Shown here piece by piece: positions 5,082 through 21,356 of a stretch of DNA of 26,156 nt. The first letter of the stretch is position 1, and the number at the start of each line of letters is the position of its first letter. Source of the DNA: a virus; the IMG/VR virus record IMGVR_UViG_3300036715_001619, positions 1 through 26,156 of that record. One strand, 5' to 3'. The translations under genes were made by a program, and so were the position numbers. The notes beneath the pieces were generated by a model. That model did not search any database. It was not told where the DNA came from and saw only the letters and a program-made list of their open reading frames with translations.

Positions 5082-5439
5082 TGTTTTTTTAATAGCCTTT
5101 TTTTTGTTTGGAACAACAACAGTATTTGCCGAAGATAAGGTTTGCTTTAGTGTTTCTGACGCTTCCAATATGGTTGTTGAATTGGAGCAAAAAAGAGTTT
5201 TAGACCAAGAAATAAAAGAATATCAAGAGCTAACCCAGAACTTAAAAAACCAGAACGAGGCTTTAGTTAAACAAAATGGTCTTCTTAAAGAGCAAGTGGA
5301 GCTTCAGCAAACTATTGCAAACAATTATAAAAATGCTTACGACGAGTGTGTAAGCCACAAAAAACCCTCTATAGGCGATAAAGTTCAGTATTTTATAATG
5401 GGCGCGGGTCTCGGAATAGCCATATTGGTGCTGTTATAA
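5065..5439 (+). CDS. signal-peptide, coiled-coil, C-terminal-TM protein of the lysis cassette
   Basis: A 124-residue protein. Residues 1-22 are a signal peptide with likely cleavage after VFA. Residues 36-95 form a Glu/Gln/Lys-rich coiled coil, and 108-124 (IMGAGLGIAILVLL at the very end) is a C-terminal membrane segment. It overlaps the previous gene by 17 bases, and its stop overlaps the next start (TAATG). A signal at one end, membrane anchor at the other and a periplasmic coiled coil between is the plan of unimolecular spanins. However, those carry a lipobox, while here the first Cys (position 28) is not in one. It may instead act with the upstream Rz-like protein. The lysis role is inferred from topology and position. 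Confidence 0.5.
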   Translation: MRRLISVFLIAFFLFGTTTVFAEDKVCFSVSDASNMVVELEQKRVLDQEIKEYQELTQNLKNQNEALVKQNGLLKEQVELQQTIANNYKNAYDECVSHKKPSIGDKVQYFIMGAGLGIAILVLL

Positions 5440-6077
5440 TGGAAGTTTCAATTAAGCTTGAAGGCGTGGAGCAGATAAAAGAAAAATACAACCCTCAGCA
5501 AATTAATAAAGCGATTAAGTTTGCTTTAAAAAATTCTATTAGAAGCGGTAAGACAGAGGCAAGCTCCGACATTAGAGATAAATTGGGCTTTAATATAAAA
5601 AAATCCGATTTAGATAAAAAAATATCTACCAAATATAACGAAACAAAAGCCGAAATATCGGTAGTAGGCGAGCCTATTTTAATGTCCTATTTTAACCCAG
5701 TCCAAATAAGCGATAGAGTAAAAACTCAGATTAGAACTAAAAAGGGCAAATTTGAATTAACCACCAAAGGGACAAGAAAGCAAGCAACGGGCGGGGTGCA
5801 AGTGCAGATTATAAAAGGCCAGCAAACTATTATAAGTGGTGGCAATTGGCAGATTGGAAATATAGAGGGTGTTTTTATCGCAAGAGGGCAAGGCGGAACA
5901 CCATTAGTCTTTGGGCGTGAAGCAAGTGGCAAGTTAATTGCTCTTAAAGTTTATGGCCAAGAATTTATGTTTAAAAAGATTTTGGACTTAGTGGCCGATA
6001 AAGTAACAACCCAATGGCAAAAAGAATTCTCTAATCAAATAAAGCAATTAGAAGCGGGCACGGCAACTTGGATTTGA
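5439..6077 (+). CDS. minor tail protein Z-like (tail completion)
   Basis: A 212-residue protein. The N-terminal half has the pattern of the prophage minor tail protein Z family: an early helix, then KTEASSDIRDKLGFNIKKSDL, meaning helical ASxxIRxxxxIxxxxL sequences followed by beta strands. A basic glycine-rich strand region follows (RGQGGTPLVFGREASGKL) and the C-terminus is helical. In lambda, gpZ is needed for DNA to pass properly through the finished tail. It is joined to the gene before it by TAATG, suggesting translational coupling. Its place after the lysis cassette is unusual, since in lambda Z lies between the head-tail connector genes and tail genes. A near-consensus promoter overlaps its stop codon. 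Confidence 0.65.
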   Translation: MEVSIKLEGVEQIKEKYNPQQINKAIKFALKNSIRSGKTEASSDIRDKLGFNIKKSDLDKKISTKYNETKAEISVVGEPILMSYFNPVQISDRVKTQIRTKKGKFELTTKGTRKQATGGVQVQIIKGQQTIISGGNWQIGNIEGVFIARGQGGTPLVFGREASGKLIALKVYGQEFMFKKILDLVADKVTTQWQKEFSNQIKQLEAGTATWI

Positions 6078-6101
6078 CAAAATGGTTTAAATGTTTATAA
6101 T
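6074..6101 (+). promoter_or_regulatory. consensus sigma70-type promoter overlapping the gpZ stop
   Basis: A perfect TTGACA (6074-6079) and a perfect TATAAT (6096-6101) are separated by 16 bases. The gpZ stop codon TGA lies inside the -35 box. Transcription would start near 6108. No good coding frame follows before the hairpin at 6181, so it should make a short RNA or read through into the leader region. Confidence 0.65.
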
Positions 6102-6107
6102 GTATTT

Positions 6108-6210
6108 AGCCTAATGGTAAATTTTGCTGTATGCCACCTTATTGGGTGGCTCTAATAAGTGTTTCCTACTCAATAGTTAGACGCCCTTAGGGGCGTTTAT
6201 ACTTGATTTT
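6108..6210 (+). ncRNA. possible small RNA 1 (about 90-100 nt)
   Basis: The stretch lies between a perfect consensus promoter (6074-6101) and a hairpin plus T-rich end (6181-6210). It holds an internal perfect stem GCCACC/GGTGGC (6133-6138 with 6145-6150). The only ATG frame (6114-6155) would give 13 residues and has no ribosome site. I see no tRNA features: no T-arm and no acceptor pairing. The family is unknown. It could also be only the leader of a longer transcript, because the terminator's T-run is interrupted. Confidence 0.4.
6181..6210 (+). terminator. intrinsic terminator of small RNA 1 (modest)
   Basis: Perfect stem ACGCCC/GGGCGT with loop TTAG (6181-6196), followed by an interrupted T-rich stretch ending in a T-run at 6207-6212. 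The broken T-run makes it weaker than the terminators at 6284 and 7047. Confidence 0.5.
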
Positions 6211-6232
6211 TTATATATTTTATTGCTATAAT
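6203..6232 (+). promoter_or_regulatory. promoter for possible small RNA 2
   Basis: TTGATT (6203-6208), 18 bases, then a perfect TATAAT (6227-6232), which sits in the palindrome TTGCTATAATAGCAA. Transcription would start near 6239, just before the AAACCTCCG sequence. Confidence 0.45.
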
Positions 6233-6238
6233 AGCAAT

Positions 6239-6320
6239 AGAAACCTCCGTTAAGTTCACATCTCCTCTTTTTTTAGGCCAGCGCCCCAATAGTATTTTGC
6301 CAGCTATTGGGGTTCTTTTA
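6239..6320 (+). ncRNA. possible small RNA 2 with anti-Shine-Dalgarno sequence (about 80 nt)
   Basis: The stretch lies between a promoter (6203-6232) and a strong terminator (6284-6320) and has no usable reading frame. Its 5' part has little visible structure and contains GAAACCTCCG (6240-6249). The reverse complement of this covers the CGGAGGTT/GGAGGTTTC ribosome sites of the genes at 6701, 7242, 8262 and 9020 (8-9 matching bases each) and GAGGTTTC before 9228 (8 bases). A second pyrimidine run, TCTCCTC (6261-6267), follows. That is the layout of small RNAs that block ribosome sites. The alternative is a decayed inverted copy of a leader: the minus strand reads CCTAAAAAAAG and later CGGAGGTTT, as the leaders do. 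Confidence 0.4.
6284..6320 (+). terminator. strong intrinsic terminator
   Basis: Perfect 9-bp stem CCCCAATAG (6284-6292) / CTATTGGGG (6304-6312) with an 11-base loop, followed by TTCTTTTATT. It works only on the + strand, since no T-run follows on the other side. It insulates the late genes and small RNAs from the repeated early leaders. Confidence 0.75.
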
Positions 6321-6360
6321 TTGCAAAAAAATATAAAAAAAACAATAATTTTTTAATGCC

Positions 6361-6500
6361 TTTATTCTTATTATCTTAATGGCATAATCTAACTGAATAT
6401 TTTTAATAAAAACTTGACAAATAAATTTAATGTGATATAGTGTCCTAAAGTTTAATAAAAAACAATATAAATGACGGCGACGGTGCCCAAAATACTTTAA
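6361..6500 (+). promoter_or_regulatory. leader copy L1: orphan promoter without hairpin or gene
   Basis: First and most decayed of five related leaders. The downstream promoter is intact: TTGACA 6414-6419, 16 bases, TATAGT 6436-6441 with extended -10 TGA before it. The upstream one keeps CATAAT (6383-6388) but has a poor -35. After TATAGTGTC the sequence jumps straight to CTAAAGTTT, so the AGGATT hairpin and GGAGG site of the other copies are missing, as if deleted. The only frame that follows (ATG 6471 to TAA 6500, 9 residues) has no ribosome site. Transcription would run into leader L2. Confidence 0.6.
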
Positions 6501-6540: not shown

Positions 6541-6700
6541 ATAAAAAAAATAATAAAAAAAATATACGGTTTAATTATATTGTTATCTTAATATAATCTA
6601 AGGGTGTTTTTTTAATAAATACTTGACAAATAAAAAATATTTGATATAGTTAGTCTTAAGGATTGGTTAAAATCCTAAAAAATTTTTTCGGAGGTTCCAA
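6541..6700 (+). promoter_or_regulatory. leader copy L2: tandem promoters, 5' hairpin, strong RBS
   Basis: An A-tract stretch is followed by a first promoter, TTTAAT 6570-6575 / TATAAT 6592-6597 (16 apart). A second promoter follows, TTGACA 6623-6628 / TATAGT 6645-6650 (16 apart, extended -10 TGA). The predicted start is near 6657. The RNA would begin almost at once with a 6-bp hairpin AGGATT/AATCCT (6659-6664 with 6671-6676, loop GGTTAA). The ribosome site CGGAGG is at 6689-6694, 6 bases before ATG 6701. It drives the 108-residue gene. Confidence 0.75.
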
Positions 6701-7027
6701 ATGGATTACTTAGAAACTTTAAAAGAGTTTGAGAAACAGGTTGAGGCAGGCAGGTCTACGCTTGTTGTAAATGCTTCTGAATACCTGGTAAGCGAAAACC
6801 TTCTTGAGGCTATCGATGAGATAGTTGAAGAAAGAACAGGCTCTTATAGTGATAATGTCTTAGTCGAAGACGATGATTTGTTTTATATGAGCTCGAAGGG
6901 CTGGGTCTCGATAATAGTTACAATATGCCCAGCTGTAAATAATGAAAGCGACGAAAGCATAACTAATGAAATATACACAAGGCTTGAAAAGATAGTCGAA
7001 GCGTTAGATAAAAATAGAAAAAAATAA
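6701..7027 (+). CDS. small acidic protein of unknown function (early cassette 1)
   Basis: A 108-residue acidic protein; no family recognised. The pattern is an N-terminal helix, a strand (STLVVNASE, 19-27), an amphipathic helix (SENLLEAIDEIVEERTG, 31-47), two or three strands with KGWVSIIVTI (66-75), and a C-terminal helix. The order helix-TG-strands-helix is shared with the product at 8609 and, for the first half, with that at 8262, so the three may be paralogues. It stands alone between its own promoters (leader L2) and its own terminator (7047-7072), and so should be expressed strongly and early. By position it is a candidate for host takeover or anti-defence, but nothing in the sequence proves it. 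Confidence 0.7.
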   Translation: MDYLETLKEFEKQVEAGRSTLVVNASEYLVSENLLEAIDEIVEERTGSYSDNVLVEDDDLFYMSSKGWVSIIVTICPAVNNESDESITNEIYTRLEKIVEALDKNRKK

Positions 7028-7046
7028 AAAAGAAATAGAAAAAGAT

Positions 7047-7072
7047 AGAGGCCTTCGGGCCTCTTTTTTTTT
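7047..7072 (+). terminator. strong intrinsic terminator
   Basis: Perfect 7-bp stem AGAGGCC/GGCCTCT with a TTCG tetraloop (7047-7064), followed by a run of nine T. It ends the single-gene transcript of the 6701 gene. Confidence 0.85.
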
Positions 7073-7080
7073 GCCTAAAA

Positions 7081-7241
7081 TTTATAAAAAAATAATAAAA
7101 AAAATATACGGCTTGATTTTATTATTATCTTAGCATAATCTAACGGTAAAAAATAATAAAATACTTGACAAATAAAAAATATTTGATATAGTTAGATTTA
7201 AGGATTGGTTAAAATCCTAAAAAACTTTTGGAGGTTTCGAA
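7081..7241 (+). promoter_or_regulatory. leader copy L3: tandem promoters, 5' hairpin, strong RBS
   Basis: First promoter: TTGATT 7113-7118 / CATAAT 7134-7139 (15 apart). Second: TTGACA 7165-7170 / TATAGT 7187-7192 (16 apart, extended -10). The 5' hairpin is AGGATT/AATCCT (7201-7206 with 7213-7218, loop GGTTAA). The ribosome site GGAGG is at 7230-7234, before ATG 7242. It is nearly identical to L2 over the promoters and hairpin. Confidence 0.75.
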
Positions 7242-8036
7242 ATGAATGTTTATGACTTGGTAGTTGAAAAGATTTTAAAGGCAATGGAGCAAGGAATTGC
7301 TCCTTGGGTTAGTCCTTATGCAGGCAGAGCTAACAAAAATCTTGTATCGAAAAAAGAATATCGCGGAATTAATAGCCTGTTGCTAAATGCAGTAGCAACA
7401 GCAAACGGGTTTAAAAGTCCAAATTGGGCGACTTTTAAACAGGCCACAGAATTGGGATTAAAGGTAAAAAAAGGTTCCAAAGCAACAATGGTTGTGTTTT
7501 GGAAAGATTTAGAAACTGAAGACGAGGAAGAAAAAGCATCTAAAAGGTTTGTATTAAGATATTACAATGTATTTAATGCAAGCCAATTAGAGGGCTATGA
7601 AGAAGAAAAAATAGAGACTTGCAATAATGATATTTTAAACGATTATTGCAAGAGAGAGAATATAACAATTAAATTAGCCAATACGGTAGCGAGCTTTTAC
7701 GCTCCAAACAGTGATTCTATAGTATTGGCTCCTACAAAAAATGAATTTTATGATGCGAACTTCGCCCACGAATGTGTGCACTCTACAGGGCACCCCAAGA
7801 GATTGGGCAGGTTCGAACTTGGATTTATAGAGACACCAGAAAGGTCGCTCGAAGAATTGGTTGCAGAGATTGGAGCATCAATGTTATGCACGGTAATGGG
7901 CAAACCAGCCCATATTGAAAACACCGCAAGCTATGTTAGTAGTTGGGCGGATTTTTTAAGGGAAGATAAAAAATCTTCCATAATTAAAGCTTCTTCTATG
8001 GCCCAAAAAGCCGTAGATTATATATTAAATAAATAG
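7242..8036 (+). CDS. ArdC-like antirestriction protein with zincin-type peptidase domain
   Basis: A 264-residue protein in two parts. Residues 1-115 match the ArdC N-terminal ssDNA-binding domain: an early GIAPWVSPY, YRGINSLLLNAV at 40-51, and a LGLKVKKGSKATMVVFWK stretch. Residues 125-264 match the polyvalent metallopeptidase domain, with zinc motif HECVH (176-180, HExxH) and a downstream EELVAEIGA helix (204-212) that supplies the third ligand in the family. ArdC proteins are known from plasmids and phages and protect incoming DNA from restriction; the peptidase substrate is not established. It sits alone under leader L3 and ends in tandem terminator hairpins. The family is clear; activity in this phage is inferred. 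Confidence 0.85.
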   Translation: MNVYDLVVEKILKAMEQGIAPWVSPYAGRANKNLVSKKEYRGINSLLLNAVATANGFKSPNWATFKQATELGLKVKKGSKATMVVFWKDLETEDEEEKASKRFVLRYYNVFNASQLEGYEEEKIETCNNDILNDYCKRENITIKLANTVASFYAPNSDSIVLAPTKNEFYDANFAHECVHSTGHPKRLGRFELGFIETPERSLEELVAEIGASMLCTVMGKPAHIENTASYVSSWADFLREDKKSSIIKASSMAQKAVDYILNK

Positions 8037-8081
8037 GCCGAAAGGCCTATATTTAAGCGAGGCCGAAAGGCCTTTTTTTTT
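8035..8081 (+). terminator. tandem hairpins, the second an intrinsic terminator
   Basis: Two near-identical hairpins AGGCC-GAAA-GGCCT lie 25 bases apart: 8035-8048 (starting inside the ArdC stop codon) and 8060-8073. Only the second is followed by a T-run (8073-8081) and is a proper terminator. The first may protect the 3' end or be a duplicated copy. Confidence 0.8.
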
Positions 8082-8100
8082 GCCCAAAAATTATAAAATT

Positions 8101-8261
8101 TTTATAAAAAAATAATAAAAAAAATATACGGCTTGATTTTTATTATTATCTTAATATAATCTGACGGTATTTTTTTAATAAAAACTTGACAAATAAATTT
8201 TATATGATATAGTGTCTTTTAAGGATTGAGAAAGTCCTAAAAAAAGTTTCGGAGGTTTGAA
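8101..8261 (+). promoter_or_regulatory. leader copy L4: tandem promoters, 5' hairpin, strong RBS
   Basis: First promoter: TTGATT 8133-8138 / TATAAT 8155-8160 (16 apart). Second: TTGACA 8186-8191 / TATAGT 8208-8213 (16 apart, extended -10). Hairpin AGGATT/AGTCCT (8222-8227 with 8233-8238, loop GAGAA) keeps pairing through one U-G pair although its sequence differs from L2/L3. Ribosome site CGGAGG is at 8250-8255, before ATG 8262. Confidence 0.75.
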
Positions 8262-8612
8262 ATGAACGGAGCAAGCAACTCAAAGGTTTTAGAGGCTTTG
8301 GTAGAAAAGGCAGGACACGGTATTTTAGTGGCAGATGCAGAAGGAATGAGCTTGAACTTAATGTTAGAGCTCGCAAAAAGGTTCGAAGATTATCTCGGGA
8401 AAGAATTTGTATGCGACCACGAGGGCAAAAAGATTGTAATAAGATTAAAAAACACCCGTGATGTAAAAGCTCTTAAATGGAGCGACGGCATAGCTGTTGA
8501 GGCAACCGATTTAATAGTGTTTAATAGTATACCAAAAATAACTGCGGGCAATGAGTTAGATATGCAGGCAATAGTAGTAAGAACAGACTATGCTAAAAGG
8601 GGACAAAAATGA
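8262..8612 (+). CDS. small protein of unknown function (early cassette 3, first gene)
   Basis: A 116-residue protein; no family recognised. The order is helix (3-17), strand (HGILVADAE), amphipathic helix (SLNLMLELAKRFEDYLG, about 30-46), and strands around KKIVIRLKN. This matches the first half of the 6701 and 8609 products. The second half differs and ends in a basic tail (DYAKRGQK). It is translated from the strong L4 ribosome site, and its stop overlaps the next start by four bases (ATGA), so the two are probably made together. No signal peptide or membrane segment. Confidence 0.65.
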   Translation: MNGASNSKVLEALVEKAGHGILVADAEGMSLNLMLELAKRFEDYLGKEFVCDHEGKKIVIRLKNTRDVKALKWSDGIAVEATDLIVFNSIPKITAGNELDMQAIVVRTDYAKRGQK

Positions 8613-8905
8613 ACAATATAGAGATTATGGAACTCCAGTCCAAAAAGGGCTGGGGGTTTTTTGAAATCGAAAATGCGAGCCAAGAGTTTATAGAAACGGT
8701 GGCCGTAACTGTTGAGGCATTGACGGGCGAGCAAACAGCCACAGTAAGGGCAGGAAGAATGTATTTATATGTAAGGGCCCCAAAAAAGTGGGCCAATGGT
8801 TTGATTATGGTAATAACAAGAATGGGCGGGCCCGAGGCAATCTCTGAGGCTGATAGTGGAAGAATAAAAAAGGCCTTAGAGATATTAATAAAGAATAAGG
8901 CTTAA
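8609..8905 (+). CDS. small protein of unknown function (early cassette 3, second gene)
   Basis: A 98-residue protein; no family recognised. Strand (GWGFFEIENAS, 14-24), helix ending in a TG turn (ETVAVTVEALTG, 29-40), strands (RMYLYVRAPKKW, 49-60, then GLIMVITRM), and a C-terminal helix (ALEILIKNKA). The layout parallels the 6701 product over most of its length, including a KKW/KGW turn before a hydrophobic strand. It overlaps the preceding gene as ATGA and has AAAAGGGGAC before its start. No terminator follows; an inverted repeat and leader L5 do. Confidence 0.65.
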   Translation: MNNIEIMELQSKKGWGFFEIENASQEFIETVAVTVEALTGEQTATVRAGRMYLYVRAPKKWANGLIMVITRMGGPEAISEADSGRIKKALEILIKNKA

Positions 8906-8912
8906 AAAGGTT

Positions 8913-8954
8913 ATTTGTCAGGCGTAAAAAAAAATATAAAAACGCTTGACAAAT
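8913..8954. repeat. inverted repeat whose right arm contains the L5 -35 box
   Basis: ATTTGTCAGGCG (8913-8924) and CGCTTGACAAAT (8943-8954) are inverted copies with one mismatch, 18 bases apart. The right arm holds the TTGACA of the next leader. No T-run follows, so it is not a normal terminator. It may be an operator, or a hairpin in RNA reading through from 8905. Confidence 0.5.
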
Positions 8955-9019
8955 AAATTTAATTTGATAAGATGTCTTTAAAGGATTGAAAAATCCTAAA
9001 AACTTTTTGGAGGTTTCCA
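8943..9019 (+). promoter_or_regulatory. leader copy L5: single promoter, 5' hairpin, strong RBS
   Basis: Short form of the leader, lacking the upstream promoter. TTGACA 8946-8951, 16 bases, TAAGAT 8968-8973 (extended -10 TGA). Hairpin AGGATT-GAAA-AATCCT (8982-8997) has a GNRA-type loop. Ribosome site GGAGG is at 9009-9013, before ATG 9020. No terminator is seen until after 16205, so this promoter could drive the whole replication operon. Confidence 0.7.
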
Positions 9020-9235
9020 ATGGTAAAAGCAGTGTTACTGGGCGAATGGGATTTTGGTGGTTATAACCACAACCACCTGAATGTCTACGAGGGCGAGGGC
9101 AAATATTTTATTAACAATGTAACGGATAGCGAGGGCATATTCATTAGCGTTAATGGCGAGGCCATTAATGTGATAGAGTTGGGCGAGCACCTATGCCCAC
9201 CTAAAGTTATAAAATCAGAGGTTTCAAATGATTAG
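9020..9235 (+). CDS. small protein of unknown function, first gene of the replication operon
   Basis: A 71-residue protein, acidic, beta-rich by eye (KAVLLGEWDF, KYFINNVTD, GIFISVNGEAINVIEL); no family recognised. It follows leader L5 directly with a GGAGG site, so it is the first translated gene of the long operon that reaches the primase-helicase. It overlaps the next gene by 8 bases. No signal peptide or membrane segment. Its position fits an early host-takeover or regulatory role, but this is inference only. Confidence 0.6.
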   Translation: MVKAVLLGEWDFGGYNHNHLNVYEGEGKYFINNVTDSEGIFISVNGEAINVIELGEHLCPPKVIKSEVSND

Positions 9236-11700: not shown

Positions 11701-12261
11701 ATGATTTTGAGCGATAAAGAAATTATTAAAAGGGCAATCAATGGAATGATAGAGCCGTTTGAGAGCAAACAGATTAAAGATATCGGGGGCGTTAAGATTA
11801 TATCTTATGGAGTTTCCAGTTATGGTTACGATATGCGCATTTCTGACGAGTTTAAAATATTTACCAATGTAAACAATGCAATAATTGACCCGAAAAACTT
11901 TTCCGAGAATAGCTATATTGATTATGAAGGCAGTTCTTGCATTATACCACCCAATAGTTTTGTTTTAGCAAGAAGCTTAGAATATTTTAGAATTCCGAGA
12001 GATATCCTAACCATATGCGTTGGCAAATCTACCTATGCAAGGTGCGGAATTATTGTAAATGTAACACCTTTCGAGCCCGAATGGGAAGGCTATGTTACTA
12101 TTGAAATATCCAACACCACGCCTTTACCAGCTAAAATATATGCTTTTGAAGGCATAGCCCAAGTTATTTTTCTAAAGGCTAATGAAGTGTGCGAAATAAG
12201 TTACAAAGATAAAGATGGTAAATACCAGAATCAAAAAAAGCTTACGACGGCGAAGGTGTAA
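11701..12261 (+). CDS. dcd: dCTP deaminase
   Basis: A 186-residue protein, full length for the family. It converts dCTP to dUTP, feeding dTMP synthesis. Seen: [15 protein letters not shown] near 33-47, the active-site segment GKSTYARCG (108-116, with Ser110 and Arg114), [10 protein letters not shown] (121-130) and the catalytic Glu in TIEISN (E135), then an EGIAQVIF strand. A dUTP-producing enzyme suits an AT-rich phage that needs much thymidine. It could also serve altered base synthesis, given the glycosyltransferase at 20556. The last codons (AAG GTG TAA) double as the ribosome site of the next gene. Confidence 0.9.
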
Positions 12262-18129: not shown

Positions 18130-19233
18130 ATGGATAAAATAATACAAGGCGATTGCGTTGAGGTAATGAAAACTTTTCCTGATAACTATGTTACGACAAT
18201 AATAACCGACCCACCTTATGGTTTAGCTTTTATGGGTAAAGAATGGGACGATTTTGGAACTGATTTAAAAAAGTTCCAAGAATGGGCAAGAATTTGGGCT
18301 GTAGAAGCTTTTAGAGTAGCAAAACCAGGAGCAACCCTATTATGTTTTGGCGGAACAAGAACATTTCACAGGTTAGCTTGTGGATTGGAAGACGCAGGCT
18401 GGCAGATTAAAGATGTTTTAATGTGGCTTAGGGGCGGTGGTTTTCCTAAAAGTTTAGATATTTCTAAAGCGATAGATAAATTAAAGGGCGCCGAAAGAGA
18501 GATAATATGTAAACACCCACACCCCGCTGGTAGTAAAGGTAATACATTTCCATTGAATCAAGAATGCTACATAACAGCACCAGCAACCCAAGAAGCTAAA
18601 GAATGGGAAGGATATGGAACAGCACTAAAACCCGCATATGAACCAATCGTAATGGCTATAAAGCCAAACGATGGTAGTTATGCCAACAATGCTTTAAAAT
18701 GGGGCGTTGCGGGTTTAAATATAAATGGCTGTAGGATTGGTTTTGAGAATACACCGAATCCCGCTACTAACCCTAAATATAGATTAGTAAACGGATATAA
18801 ATTGCCAACAAGGGGACAAAAAAGTAATGGTGTCGTAGGTTTTGTAAGTAGTAAAAATGAAATTAATTTACAAGGGCGTTTTCCCGCTAATGTAATTTTA
18901 GACGAAGAGTCGGCGGAGTTGTTAGATAAACAAAGCGACAATGCTTCTCGTTTCTTTTATTGTGCTAAAGCAAGCAAAAGCGAGCGAACAGCTAACGGGC
19001 TAATAGAGAATAACCACCCAACCCTAAAGCCGTTAGAGTTAATTAAATACCTTGTAAAGTTGGCTACACCCCCTGATGGCTTAGTATTAGACCCTTTTGT
19101 TGGTAGCGGGACCACTTGCGTGGCTTGTAAGATTTTGGGCTATGATTGCATAGGCATAGAAAAAGAGCTAAACTATATAGAGATAGCTAACAAAAGATTA
19201 AAGGGAACAAAAGTAAATGATGTCCTTTTTTAG
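18130..19233 (+). CDS. DNA methyltransferase, beta class (N4-cytosine or N6-adenine)
   Basis: A 367-residue protein. Catalytic motif IV TDPPYG (26-31) comes first and the AdoMet-binding motif I LDPFVGSGTT (320-329) near the end, the beta-class order; HPTLKPLELIKYL before motif I and YDCIGIEKE after it are typical. DPPY is used by both N6-adenine and N4-cytosine enzymes, so the base is uncertain. No restriction partner is nearby, so it most likely protects phage DNA from host restriction, alongside ArdC. It is full length. AGAGG precedes the start. Confidence 0.85.
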   Translation: MDKIIQGDCVEVMKTFPDNYVTTIITDPPYGLAFMGKEWDDFGTDLKKFQEWARIWAVEAFRVAKPGATLLCFGGTRTFHRLACGLEDAGWQIKDVLMWLRGGGFPKSLDISKAIDKLKGAEREIICKHPHPAGSKGNTFPLNQECYITAPATQEAKEWEGYGTALKPAYEPIVMAIKPNDGSYANNALKWGVAGLNINGCRIGFENTPNPATNPKYRLVNGYKLPTRGQKSNGVVGFVSSKNEINLQGRFPANVILDEESAELLDKQSDNASRFFYCAKASKSERTANGLIENNHPTLKPLELIKYLVKLATPPDGLVLDPFVGSGTTCVACKILGYDCIGIEKELNYIEIANKRLKGTKVNDVLF

Positions 19234-19935: not shown

Positions 19936-20556
19936 ATGTCAGATTTGTTTTGGAAGACTGAAAAGCGGTTAGTGAAGGATTTGAAATTCTTTGAAAAAAA
20001 TCCGAGAAAAATGTCTAAAACTCAAGCGGAGCAATTATTGCAAAGCATTAAGAAATTTAACTTAGTCGAGATACCCGTAATCGACCAAAACAACCGAATA
20101 ATAGCGGGCAATATGCGAGTAACGGCTTTAAAGAAATTAGGCAGGGTTGACGAAGAAATCGAGGTTAGAGTGCCGAGCAGAGATTTAACGGAAGCAGAGG
20201 CAATGGAGTATCTCGTAAGGAGCAATAAGAATATTGGCGAATGGGAAACCAAACTACTTGCTGAATTCGACCAAGATTTGCTAAAAGAAACGGGCTTTTC
20301 TGATAAAGAGCTCGAGGGAATATTCTACGACAAAAAAGAAGAAGAGGCTAAAGAGTTAGAATTCGCTGAAGAATTGCTCGAAGAGCATAATTATGTAGTT
20401 TTGTATTTCGATAATGAGATAGATTGGCTTAATTTTTGTAGCTTAGTTGAGATTAAAAAAGTGCAGTCGTTTAGTAGCCACGAAGGTTGGCGACAGATAG
20501 GCATTGGGCGGGTTATGAAAGGCGCTGAAGTAGTAAACAAGTTGAGGCAGTCCTAA
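19936..20556 (+). CDS. ParB/Srx-fold nuclease-like protein
   Basis: A 206-residue protein. Residues 12-70 have the ParB core: NPRKMS (22-27) and IIAGNMRVTALKKLG (55-69), the place of the usual GxxR box (GNMR here). The second half is acidic (DKKEEEAKELEFAEELLEEHN), followed by a small alpha/beta region. Phage proteins of this kind often lie beside terminase, methylase or DNA-modification genes; this one overlaps the glycosyltransferase gene (TAATG). Its activity is unknown: it could bind DNA at the packaging start or use nucleotides. It has a strong AAAGGAGG ribosome site. Confidence 0.75.
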   Translation: MSDLFWKTEKRLVKDLKFFEKNPRKMSKTQAEQLLQSIKKFNLVEIPVIDQNNRIIAGNMRVTALKKLGRVDEEIEVRVPSRDLTEAEAMEYLVRSNKNIGEWETKLLAEFDQDLLKETGFSDKELEGIFYDKKEEEAKELEFAEELLEEHNYVVLYFDNEIDWLNFCSLVEIKKVQSFSSHEGWRQIGIGRVMKGAEVVNKLRQS

Positions 20557-21356
20557 TGTTTGGCAAGGATTTTTGGGTTCCTAAAAAAATATCGGTTTGC
20601 GTGCCTTCCTATAAGAGGCCCAGAGATGTAATAACTAAAAACATTTACCCCTTTATAAAGTTATTTGTCGACGAGTCCGAATATGATGACTATAAAAAAT
20701 ATAACCCCGAGCAAGAGATTGTTAAATTGCCCAAAGGTATACAAGGCAATATCGCAAGGGTGCGAAATTATATTCTTGATTACGAATTTAAAAATAAGAC
20801 TGACGCGGTTGTAATGATAGACGATGATAATAAAGGGTTGTTTAAATGGAAATACGGCAAAGCGGAGCTTGTCGATAAAGATAATTTCTTGATATTTGTT
20901 AGAAAGTATTCTATCTTAGCTTATGATTGGGGCGCTGTAATGTGGGGCGTAAGTATTAATAACGATAAACAAGTCTATTATGAATATGCACCATTTTCTA
21001 CCACCAGGTATGTTGGCGCGCCTTTTATGTGCTTTATTAAAGACGATGGCACGAGGTTTGATGAAAGAATACCACTAAAAGAAGATTATGACATATGTGT
21101 CCAATTGTTAAACAAACACAGAATTGTCTTGAGAGTAAATAGCTATTGTTATGTAACAAAGCAAAGCGAAAATAAGGGCGGTTGTGCTGTAATGCGAAAT
21201 ATTGACGAAGAAAAAAGGCAATTCGATATATTACAAAAAAAGTGGGGCTCTAAGATTATACATCAGGGAACGAGCAGTCAAAGCCATAGTTCTAAAAAGG
21301 TTAGAAAAATATTTGACTATAACCCAGTTATAGTAGTTCCAATAAGGGGGATTTAA
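20556..21356 (+). CDS. GT-A glycosyltransferase, TET-associated (TAGT)-like
   Basis: A 266-residue protein. Nucleotide-sugar fold: ISVCVPSYKRP (12-22) as first strand, GNIARVRNYIL (64-74), the metal-binding DxD in VVMIDDDN (86-92) and a late acidic motif LKEDYDI (174-180). The spacing with NxARxRN before the DDD strand is that of the phage glycosyltransferases that sugar-modify hydroxymethylated DNA bases (TAGT family). No TET oxygenase or hydroxymethylase is in the window, so the acceptor is unknown; protein or lipopolysaccharide targets remain possible. It sits between the ParB-like and terminase genes and is coupled to the first by TAATG. Confidence 0.65.
   Translation: MFGKDFWVPKKISVCVPSYKRPRDVITKNIYPFIKLFVDESEYDDYKKYNPEQEIVKLPKGIQGNIARVRNYILDYEFKNKTDAVVMIDDDNKGLFKWKYGKAELVDKDNFLIFVRKYSILAYDWGAVMWGVSINNDKQVYYEYAPFSTTRYVGAPFMCFIKDDGTRFDERIPLKEDYDICVQLLNKHRIVLRVNSYCYVTKQSENKGGCAVMRNIDEEKRQFDILQKKWGSKIIHQGTSSQSHSSKKVRKIFDYNPVIVVPIRGI

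Follow-up and report, generated by a model that had tools for sequence, protein, structure and literature searches.

The DNA between the structural genes and the early genes of this phage raises two linked questions: does a short stretch with its own promoter and terminator code for a regulatory RNA, and if so, to which messages is that RNA fitted? The sequence analysed, an IMG/VR phage contig of 26,156 bases, is referred to here as the window. Two short promoter-terminator units, with their terminators in tandem, separate its last structural gene (5439-6077), which codes for a neck or tail-completion protein (PHROG 27), from the first early cassette. The second unit, at 6203-6322 on the plus strand, is conserved and codes for a predicted RNA of about 84 nucleotides, here called RNA2, with the 5' end GAAACCUCCG. 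Its parts are:

6203-6232, plus strand: predicted promoter of RNA2; TTGATT, an 18-nucleotide spacer and TGcTATAAT, with an extended TG before the -10 box
6239-6322, plus strand: RNA2, predicted small RNA; unpaired 5' half, then the terminator hairpin
6281-6322, plus strand: intrinsic terminator of RNA2; GC-rich hairpin CCCCAATAG/CTATTGGGG, then the U-rich tail TTCTTTT

The promoter is sigma-70-like, agrees with the consensus at 10 of 12 positions and has its predicted start at about 6239-6240. Together with the hairpin and the U-rich tail it bears out, as a prediction, the preliminary description of a unit with its own promoter and a strong terminator, and the sequence GAAACCTCCG is present at 6240-6249 as described there. 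A short noncoding RNA flanked by its own promoter and an intrinsic terminator is what is generally expected of a trans-acting small RNA. The predicted fold has a single stable hairpin, the terminator, and leaves the motifs ACCUCCG and CUCCUC largely unpaired. An Rfam search with 6239-6322 against 4,227 families returned no match, even at E values up to 5.

The unit is present in only two further contigs, IMGVR_UViG_3300035180_002195 (L002) and IMGVR_UViG_3300035182_001706 (L003), and conservation was compared across these three closely related genomes; scans with the neck protein, the RNA2 motifs, the Erf protein, the 6701 protein and the terminator sequence identified no other carrier. A third relative proposed by a pattern scan (L005) was rejected as a chance match within an unrelated coding region, and a more distant relative (L015), whose neck protein is 56% identical, has neither the RNA2 unit nor the repeated leaders described below. 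The relatives of the terminase and of the tail protein are scattered and indicate no host. All three genomes retain the promoter, the terminator and the two CTCC motifs; the promoter has TACAAT in L002 and a 17-nucleotide spacer in L003. In all three, the 5' half of RNA2 is mostly unpaired in the predicted folds, with fold z scores of -2.3 (window), -2.5 (L002) and -3.0 (L003). RNA2 has 3 substitutions per 84 nucleotides in L002 and 3 per 83 in L003, and a few single-base insertions or deletions, all of them between the motifs. The adjacent noncoding DNA has 5 per 85 (L002) and 22 per 85 (L003), a contrast that in L003 may be inflated because its downstream stretch enters a different cassette and is perhaps partly non-homologous.

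Another reading of such a unit is that it codes for no regulatory RNA at all and marks a transcription boundary, made of a promoter relic and terminators, in which the CCTCC match is accidental. Its position, right at the junction of structural genes and early cassettes and with two terminators in a row, would suit a boundary well, and terminators are common in this region of the genome. However, a boundary would require conservation neither of the promoter nor of the 45 nucleotides that precede the terminator, and chance fails to yield the match to the leaders (see below); we regard a mere boundary as unlikely, and it is probable that a discrete RNA is made from the unit.

The first of the two units lies directly upstream:

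6074-6202, plus strand: RNA1, the neighbouring unit; TTGACA-16-TATAAT promoter agreeing with the consensus at 12 of 12 positions, short transcript, terminator at 6178-6199

The RNA1 promoter overlaps the end of the neck gene and is identical in all three genomes, and the fold of RNA1 has a z score of -3.4. At the RNA1 5' end, a 49-bp stretch with the hairpin GCCACC...GGGTGGC is present in the window and in L002 and absent from L003. RNA1 is a possible second small RNA; a search for its targets gave weak candidates that were inconsistent across the three genomes.

Downstream of RNA2, the genes starting at 6701, 7242, 8262 and 9020 each have their own promoter, TTGACA-16-TATAGT (or TAAGAT), with a score of 10-11 out of 12, and a common leader: a GGATT...AATCC hairpin, the stretch CCTAAAAAA and then GGAGGTTTC, GGAGGTTTG or GGAGGTTCC before the start codon. 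Judged by their position, their promoters and their kind, we take these to be early genes. The leaders and one further ribosome site are listed with their predicted pairing energies to RNA2:

6659-6700, plus strand: early leader 1; hairpin GGATT...AATCC, CCTAAAAAA, CGGAGGTT, start codon at 6701; -7.4 after accessibility correction
7200-7241, plus strand: early leader 2, before the ArdC-like gene 7242-8036; duplex -19.5, corrected -15.0, rank 3 of 36
8221-8261, plus strand: early leader 3, before 8262-8612; corrected -18.4, rank 1 of 36
8981-9019, plus strand: early leader 4, before 9020-9235; duplex -19.9, corrected -13.2, rank 6 of 36
9217-9225, plus strand: ribosome site of gene 9228, AGAGGTTTC, without a leader hairpin; 8-nucleotide match, corrected -10.1, rank 9 of 36

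The product of 7242-8036 is an ArdC-like antirestriction protein with ArdcN and zincin domains. The ribosome site of gene 9228 reads CGGAGGTTTC in L003 and is lost in L002; it is a possible, weaker target of RNA2. The number of leaders differs between the genomes (four in the window, five in L002 and one in L003), and thus cassettes come and go: whole units of promoter, leader and gene have been gained or lost among these close relatives (window 6701-9020, L002 11267-14134, L003 11012). The gene at 6701 has two copies in L002, the cassettes of 6701, 7242 and 8262 are absent from L003, and the one leader cassette that L003 retains is that of leader 4. At 6325-6480 the window also has an orphan cassette front: its early-type promoter (TTGACA-16-TATAGT, at 6414) is preceded by the usual block, yet neither leader nor gene follows until the next cassette promoter, at 6623. 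A conserved block, AAATAATAAAAAAAATATACGG...TTATCTTAATATAATCT, lies at 6544-6605, 7085-7146 and 8105-8165, upstream of each cassette promoter; it may be a second promoter in tandem or a place where cassettes are exchanged.

Elsewhere in the window, 20556-21356 codes for a protein similar to beta-glucosyl-HMC-alpha-glucosyltransferases (PHROG 842), 18130-19233 for a DNA methyltransferase and 11701-12261 for a dCTP deaminase. Together these three genes hint that the phage DNA may be modified.

The match between RNA2 and the leaders lies in two modules of its 5' half:

6240-6256, plus strand: module A, GAAACCTCCG-TT-AAGTT; pairs with the leader Shine-Dalgarno sequence, with the bases after it and with the near-upstream AACTT
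6259-6277, plus strand: module B, CATCTCCTCTTTTTTTAGG; pairs with the leader Shine-Dalgarno sequence and, far upstream of it, with the A-rich CCTAAAAAA stretch that follows the leader hairpin

All complementary runs quoted in the preliminary description are present: 8 nucleotides for 6701, 9 each for 7242, 8262 and 9020, and 8 for 9228. Module B had escaped that description and pairs on its own with the same leaders as module A: its duplexes range from -13.7 to -18.1 kcal/mol (mean -15.4), and 19 of 8,689 positions do as well on average. The A-rich/U-rich part of module B is of low complexity and deserves less weight. In L002 and L003 the module has CTCCTCC in place of the CTCCTCT of the window.

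Any CCTCC pairs with any GGAGG, as had been cautioned from the start, and therefore controls were built that keep the CCTCC; and because the leaders resemble one another, the four count as one target and not as four. When both strands of the window were scanned in 24-mers for the mean duplex energy with the four leaders, leaving aside sites antisense to the leaders or to the 9228 start, the best 24-mer of all was 6240-6263 on the plus strand, the predicted first bases of RNA2 (-17.1 kcal/mol, against a genome mean of -7.1 and a standard deviation of 2.3). The margin is small: the next site, on the minus strand, has -16.8 and the next unrelated site on the plus strand -16.4. The sequence AAACCTCC at 6241 is the sole plus-strand 8-mer of the window that is complementary to at least three of the four leader ribosome sites. 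A second control shuffled the first 42 bases of RNA2 with CCTCC held in place (n=200) and included the cost of opening both RNAs: the leaders have a mean of -13.5 with RNA2 and of -4.75 +/- 1.82 with the shuffles, and none of the 200 shuffles reaches the observed value in the window; in L002, one of 200 does. The leaders bind RNA2 better than other gene starts do (Mann-Whitney p = 0.011), just 165 of 58,905 sets of four genes (0.28%) pair as well as the four leaders, and scrambling the CCUCC seed in silico weakens binding to all four. The complementarity of RNA2 to the leaders is more than chance, and it goes beyond the match of CCTCC to GGAGG, exceeding every control that retained CCTCC.

The prediction against individual gene starts is less uniform. 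As a group the leaders outdo nearly all other sets, but gene 6701 falls near the median after accessibility correction and is a poor target, and the non-leader genes 17639, 11460 and 13676 rank among the best. Plain co-folding of full-length RNAs is less clear than accessibility-corrected pairing and does not place all leaders at the top. Nor are GGAGG sites exclusive to the leaders, as had been supposed when other genes were said to use different sites: 13676 (CGGAGGC) and 19936 (GGAGGC) have them too, as does the SSB gene of L002 and L003 (CGGAGGTTTT).

Observations of this type raise the alternative of a genuine phage small RNA with host mRNAs as its main targets, which would shut off or remodel translation of messages with GGAGG sites and match the phage leaders secondarily, since both fit the ribosome. 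CCUCC pairs with any strong Shine-Dalgarno sequence, a further CTCCTC is found in module B, good scores are also reached by some non-leader genes that have strong sites, and L003 keeps RNA2 despite its single leader. Against this, the complementarity to the leaders is above that of the CCTCC-keeping shuffles and the pairing includes bases that do not pair with the ribosome, namely TTTC after the Shine-Dalgarno sequence and AACTT and the CCTAAAAAA stretch before it. We consider a mainly host-directed RNA unlikely; that phage leaders are among the main targets of RNA2 is in our judgement an evenly balanced proposition.

The relatives agree with pairing to the leaders to different degrees. In L002, RNA2 is again the best plus-strand complement of the leaders. 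In L003, with its one leader and with a base inserted between the two arms of module A, RNA2 is not among the top sites. A predicted unpaired seed with complementarity to translation initiation regions beyond chance, as expected of a trans-acting small RNA, is present, more weakly in L003. Drift of the complementary bases under fixed leaders, which had been named as evidence against such an RNA, was not seen in the two relatives.

Two further readings concern the unit as a cis element or its other strand. RNA2 points towards the early genes, whose first cassette promoter follows about 90 bases downstream (6414). This would be compatible with a leader or attenuator: conditional read-through of the terminator would give cis expression of the early region, with the CCTCC motifs as antiterminator or protein sites. 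Yet the early cassettes have promoters of their own with 10-11 of 12 consensus positions, and the folds have no evident alternative antiterminator hairpin; we hold an attenuator to be improbable. The minus strand, in turn, reads CCTAAAAAAGGAGGAGAT, with a possible ATG, and has AACTT...GGAGG in the relatives, which could mean that the functional strand is the opposite one, as a decayed early leader or a very short open reading frame served by a GGAGGAG ribosome site. The resemblance to a decayed leader noted in the preliminary description is however at background level (102 of 2,086 genome windows align as well), no reading frame is conserved across the three genomes and on the minus strand no U-run follows the hairpin. 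A decayed-leader origin was rejected as the main explanation on these grounds, and a functional opposite strand is very improbable altogether.

Given a conserved unit, a set of repeated leaders and a complementarity that extends past the ribosome match, we lean by a little towards RNA2 being a trans-acting phage small RNA that blocks the ribosome sites of the repeated leaders, as read from the sequence. Its unpaired 5' half would present two anti-Shine-Dalgarno modules fitted to the leader that is reused before the early cassettes, and pairing would hide the ribosome site, so that several early genes, the ArdC-like antirestriction gene among them, would be translated less. We infer transcription of RNA2, repression and its timing, as well as the stability of the RNA, perhaps with Hfq. 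The most plausible use would be to damp early genes after their work is done, or to hold them low between infection rounds; the position of the RNA2 gene, after the structural genes and before the early array, says nothing certain about timing, and its promoter resembles a plain host sigma-70 promoter. Of the original proposal that one RNA shuts off all early cassettes together, the aim at the leader ribosome sites remains the best-supported reading, with a compact conserved unit, an unpaired 5' end and pairing above the controls; the joint shut-off is called into question by the weak target 6701 and by L003, which keeps the RNA with just one leader. That the leader serves as a common address of accessory early cassettes, so that a single two-module RNA lowers all of them together and coordinates the array, is a tentative idea that we rate below even. 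If it is true, any gene that lands in the cassette array would fall under the post-transcriptional control of one self-encoded RNA.

Phage RNAs that block phage ribosome sites, chromosomal small RNAs with several anti-Shine-Dalgarno motifs and repeated phage leaders are all known already. In phages P1 and P7, the c4 RNA blocks translation of the phage mRNA ant by pairing at its ribosome site (PMC12197685). Like RNA2 it is made by a phage and aimed at a phage ribosome site, but c4 is structured, carries its complement in loops and has one target, whereas RNA2 has unpaired 5' modules and a target leader common to several genes; RNA2 has no match among the curated Rfam families. P22 sar likewise blocks a phage ribosome site, and lambda OOP and PreS and VP882 VpdS are also phage-encoded base-pairing regulators of phage or host mRNAs (PMC12197685); none of these is described there as targeting a leader repeated across several phage genes, as RNA2 would. 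The alpha-r14 or 'cuckoo' RNAs, for example NfeR1 of Sinorhizobium, have several anti-Shine-Dalgarno motifs and silence ntrB by covering its ribosome site (PMC10746234). These are chromosomal, with CCUCCUCCC in the loops of three hairpins; RNA2 is a phage RNA that lacks these hairpins and has ACCUCCG and CUCCUC mostly unpaired. RoxS/RsaE and other C-rich small RNAs of Firmicutes pair with Shine-Dalgarno sequences through C-rich regions (PMC8216469), but are chromosomal with metabolic targets, and RNA2 has no match to their Rfam family.

On the target side, several phages place one repeated ribosome-site leader before many small genes. The SAS/ESAS elements of Cluster K mycobacteriophages are such leaders, partly with an inverted repeat and a promoter. 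Their discoverers raised the question of a binding partner, be it an RNA or a protein and of phage or host origin (PMC3203893), and the role of the SAS repeats was still called unknown in 2024 (PMC11373665). The architecture of repeated leader, inverted repeat, promoter and several small genes is found here too, with four leaders in the window and five in L002. The sequences are unrelated: the SAS consensus by start codons is GGGATAGGAGCCC and the window leaders have GGAGGTTTC; SAS/ESAS resembles the target side only.

In a side check, the single anti-SAS copy of phage Adephagia (JF704105, around 58661-58711; 38662-38712 in L031) was located in a noncoding gap, where it forms the loop of a strong hairpin, GCGCGG-CCTCCTATCC-CCGCGC; the fold z score of the region is -5.2. 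Cluster K1 phages carry this hairpin, which is also present in L032 and L033, and the 10 bases of its loop, CCTCCTATCC, are exactly complementary to the SAS core GGATAGGAG. By blastn the hairpin region occurs in 161 Mycobacterium phages, although several other lineages of the group have lost the complement in the loop. The K1 phages Validus and Niklas have the loop unchanged, Amgine, DarthP and Unicorn carry another run of pyrimidines in its place, and the loops of ShedlockHolmes, Pixie and Marshawn bear no relation to it. As an independent parallel the Cluster K hairpin is mixed, and we treat it as a lead and not as support.

None of the open-access papers compared describes this combination, a single phage RNA whose modules match a leader repeated across several genes of the same phage, which is no proof of its absence. 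If the leader is the landing site of a small RNA of the phage itself, the presence in repeated leaders of bases unused by the ribosome would be explained, and newly acquired early genes, an antirestriction gene included, would have a simple route to join a common control at once.
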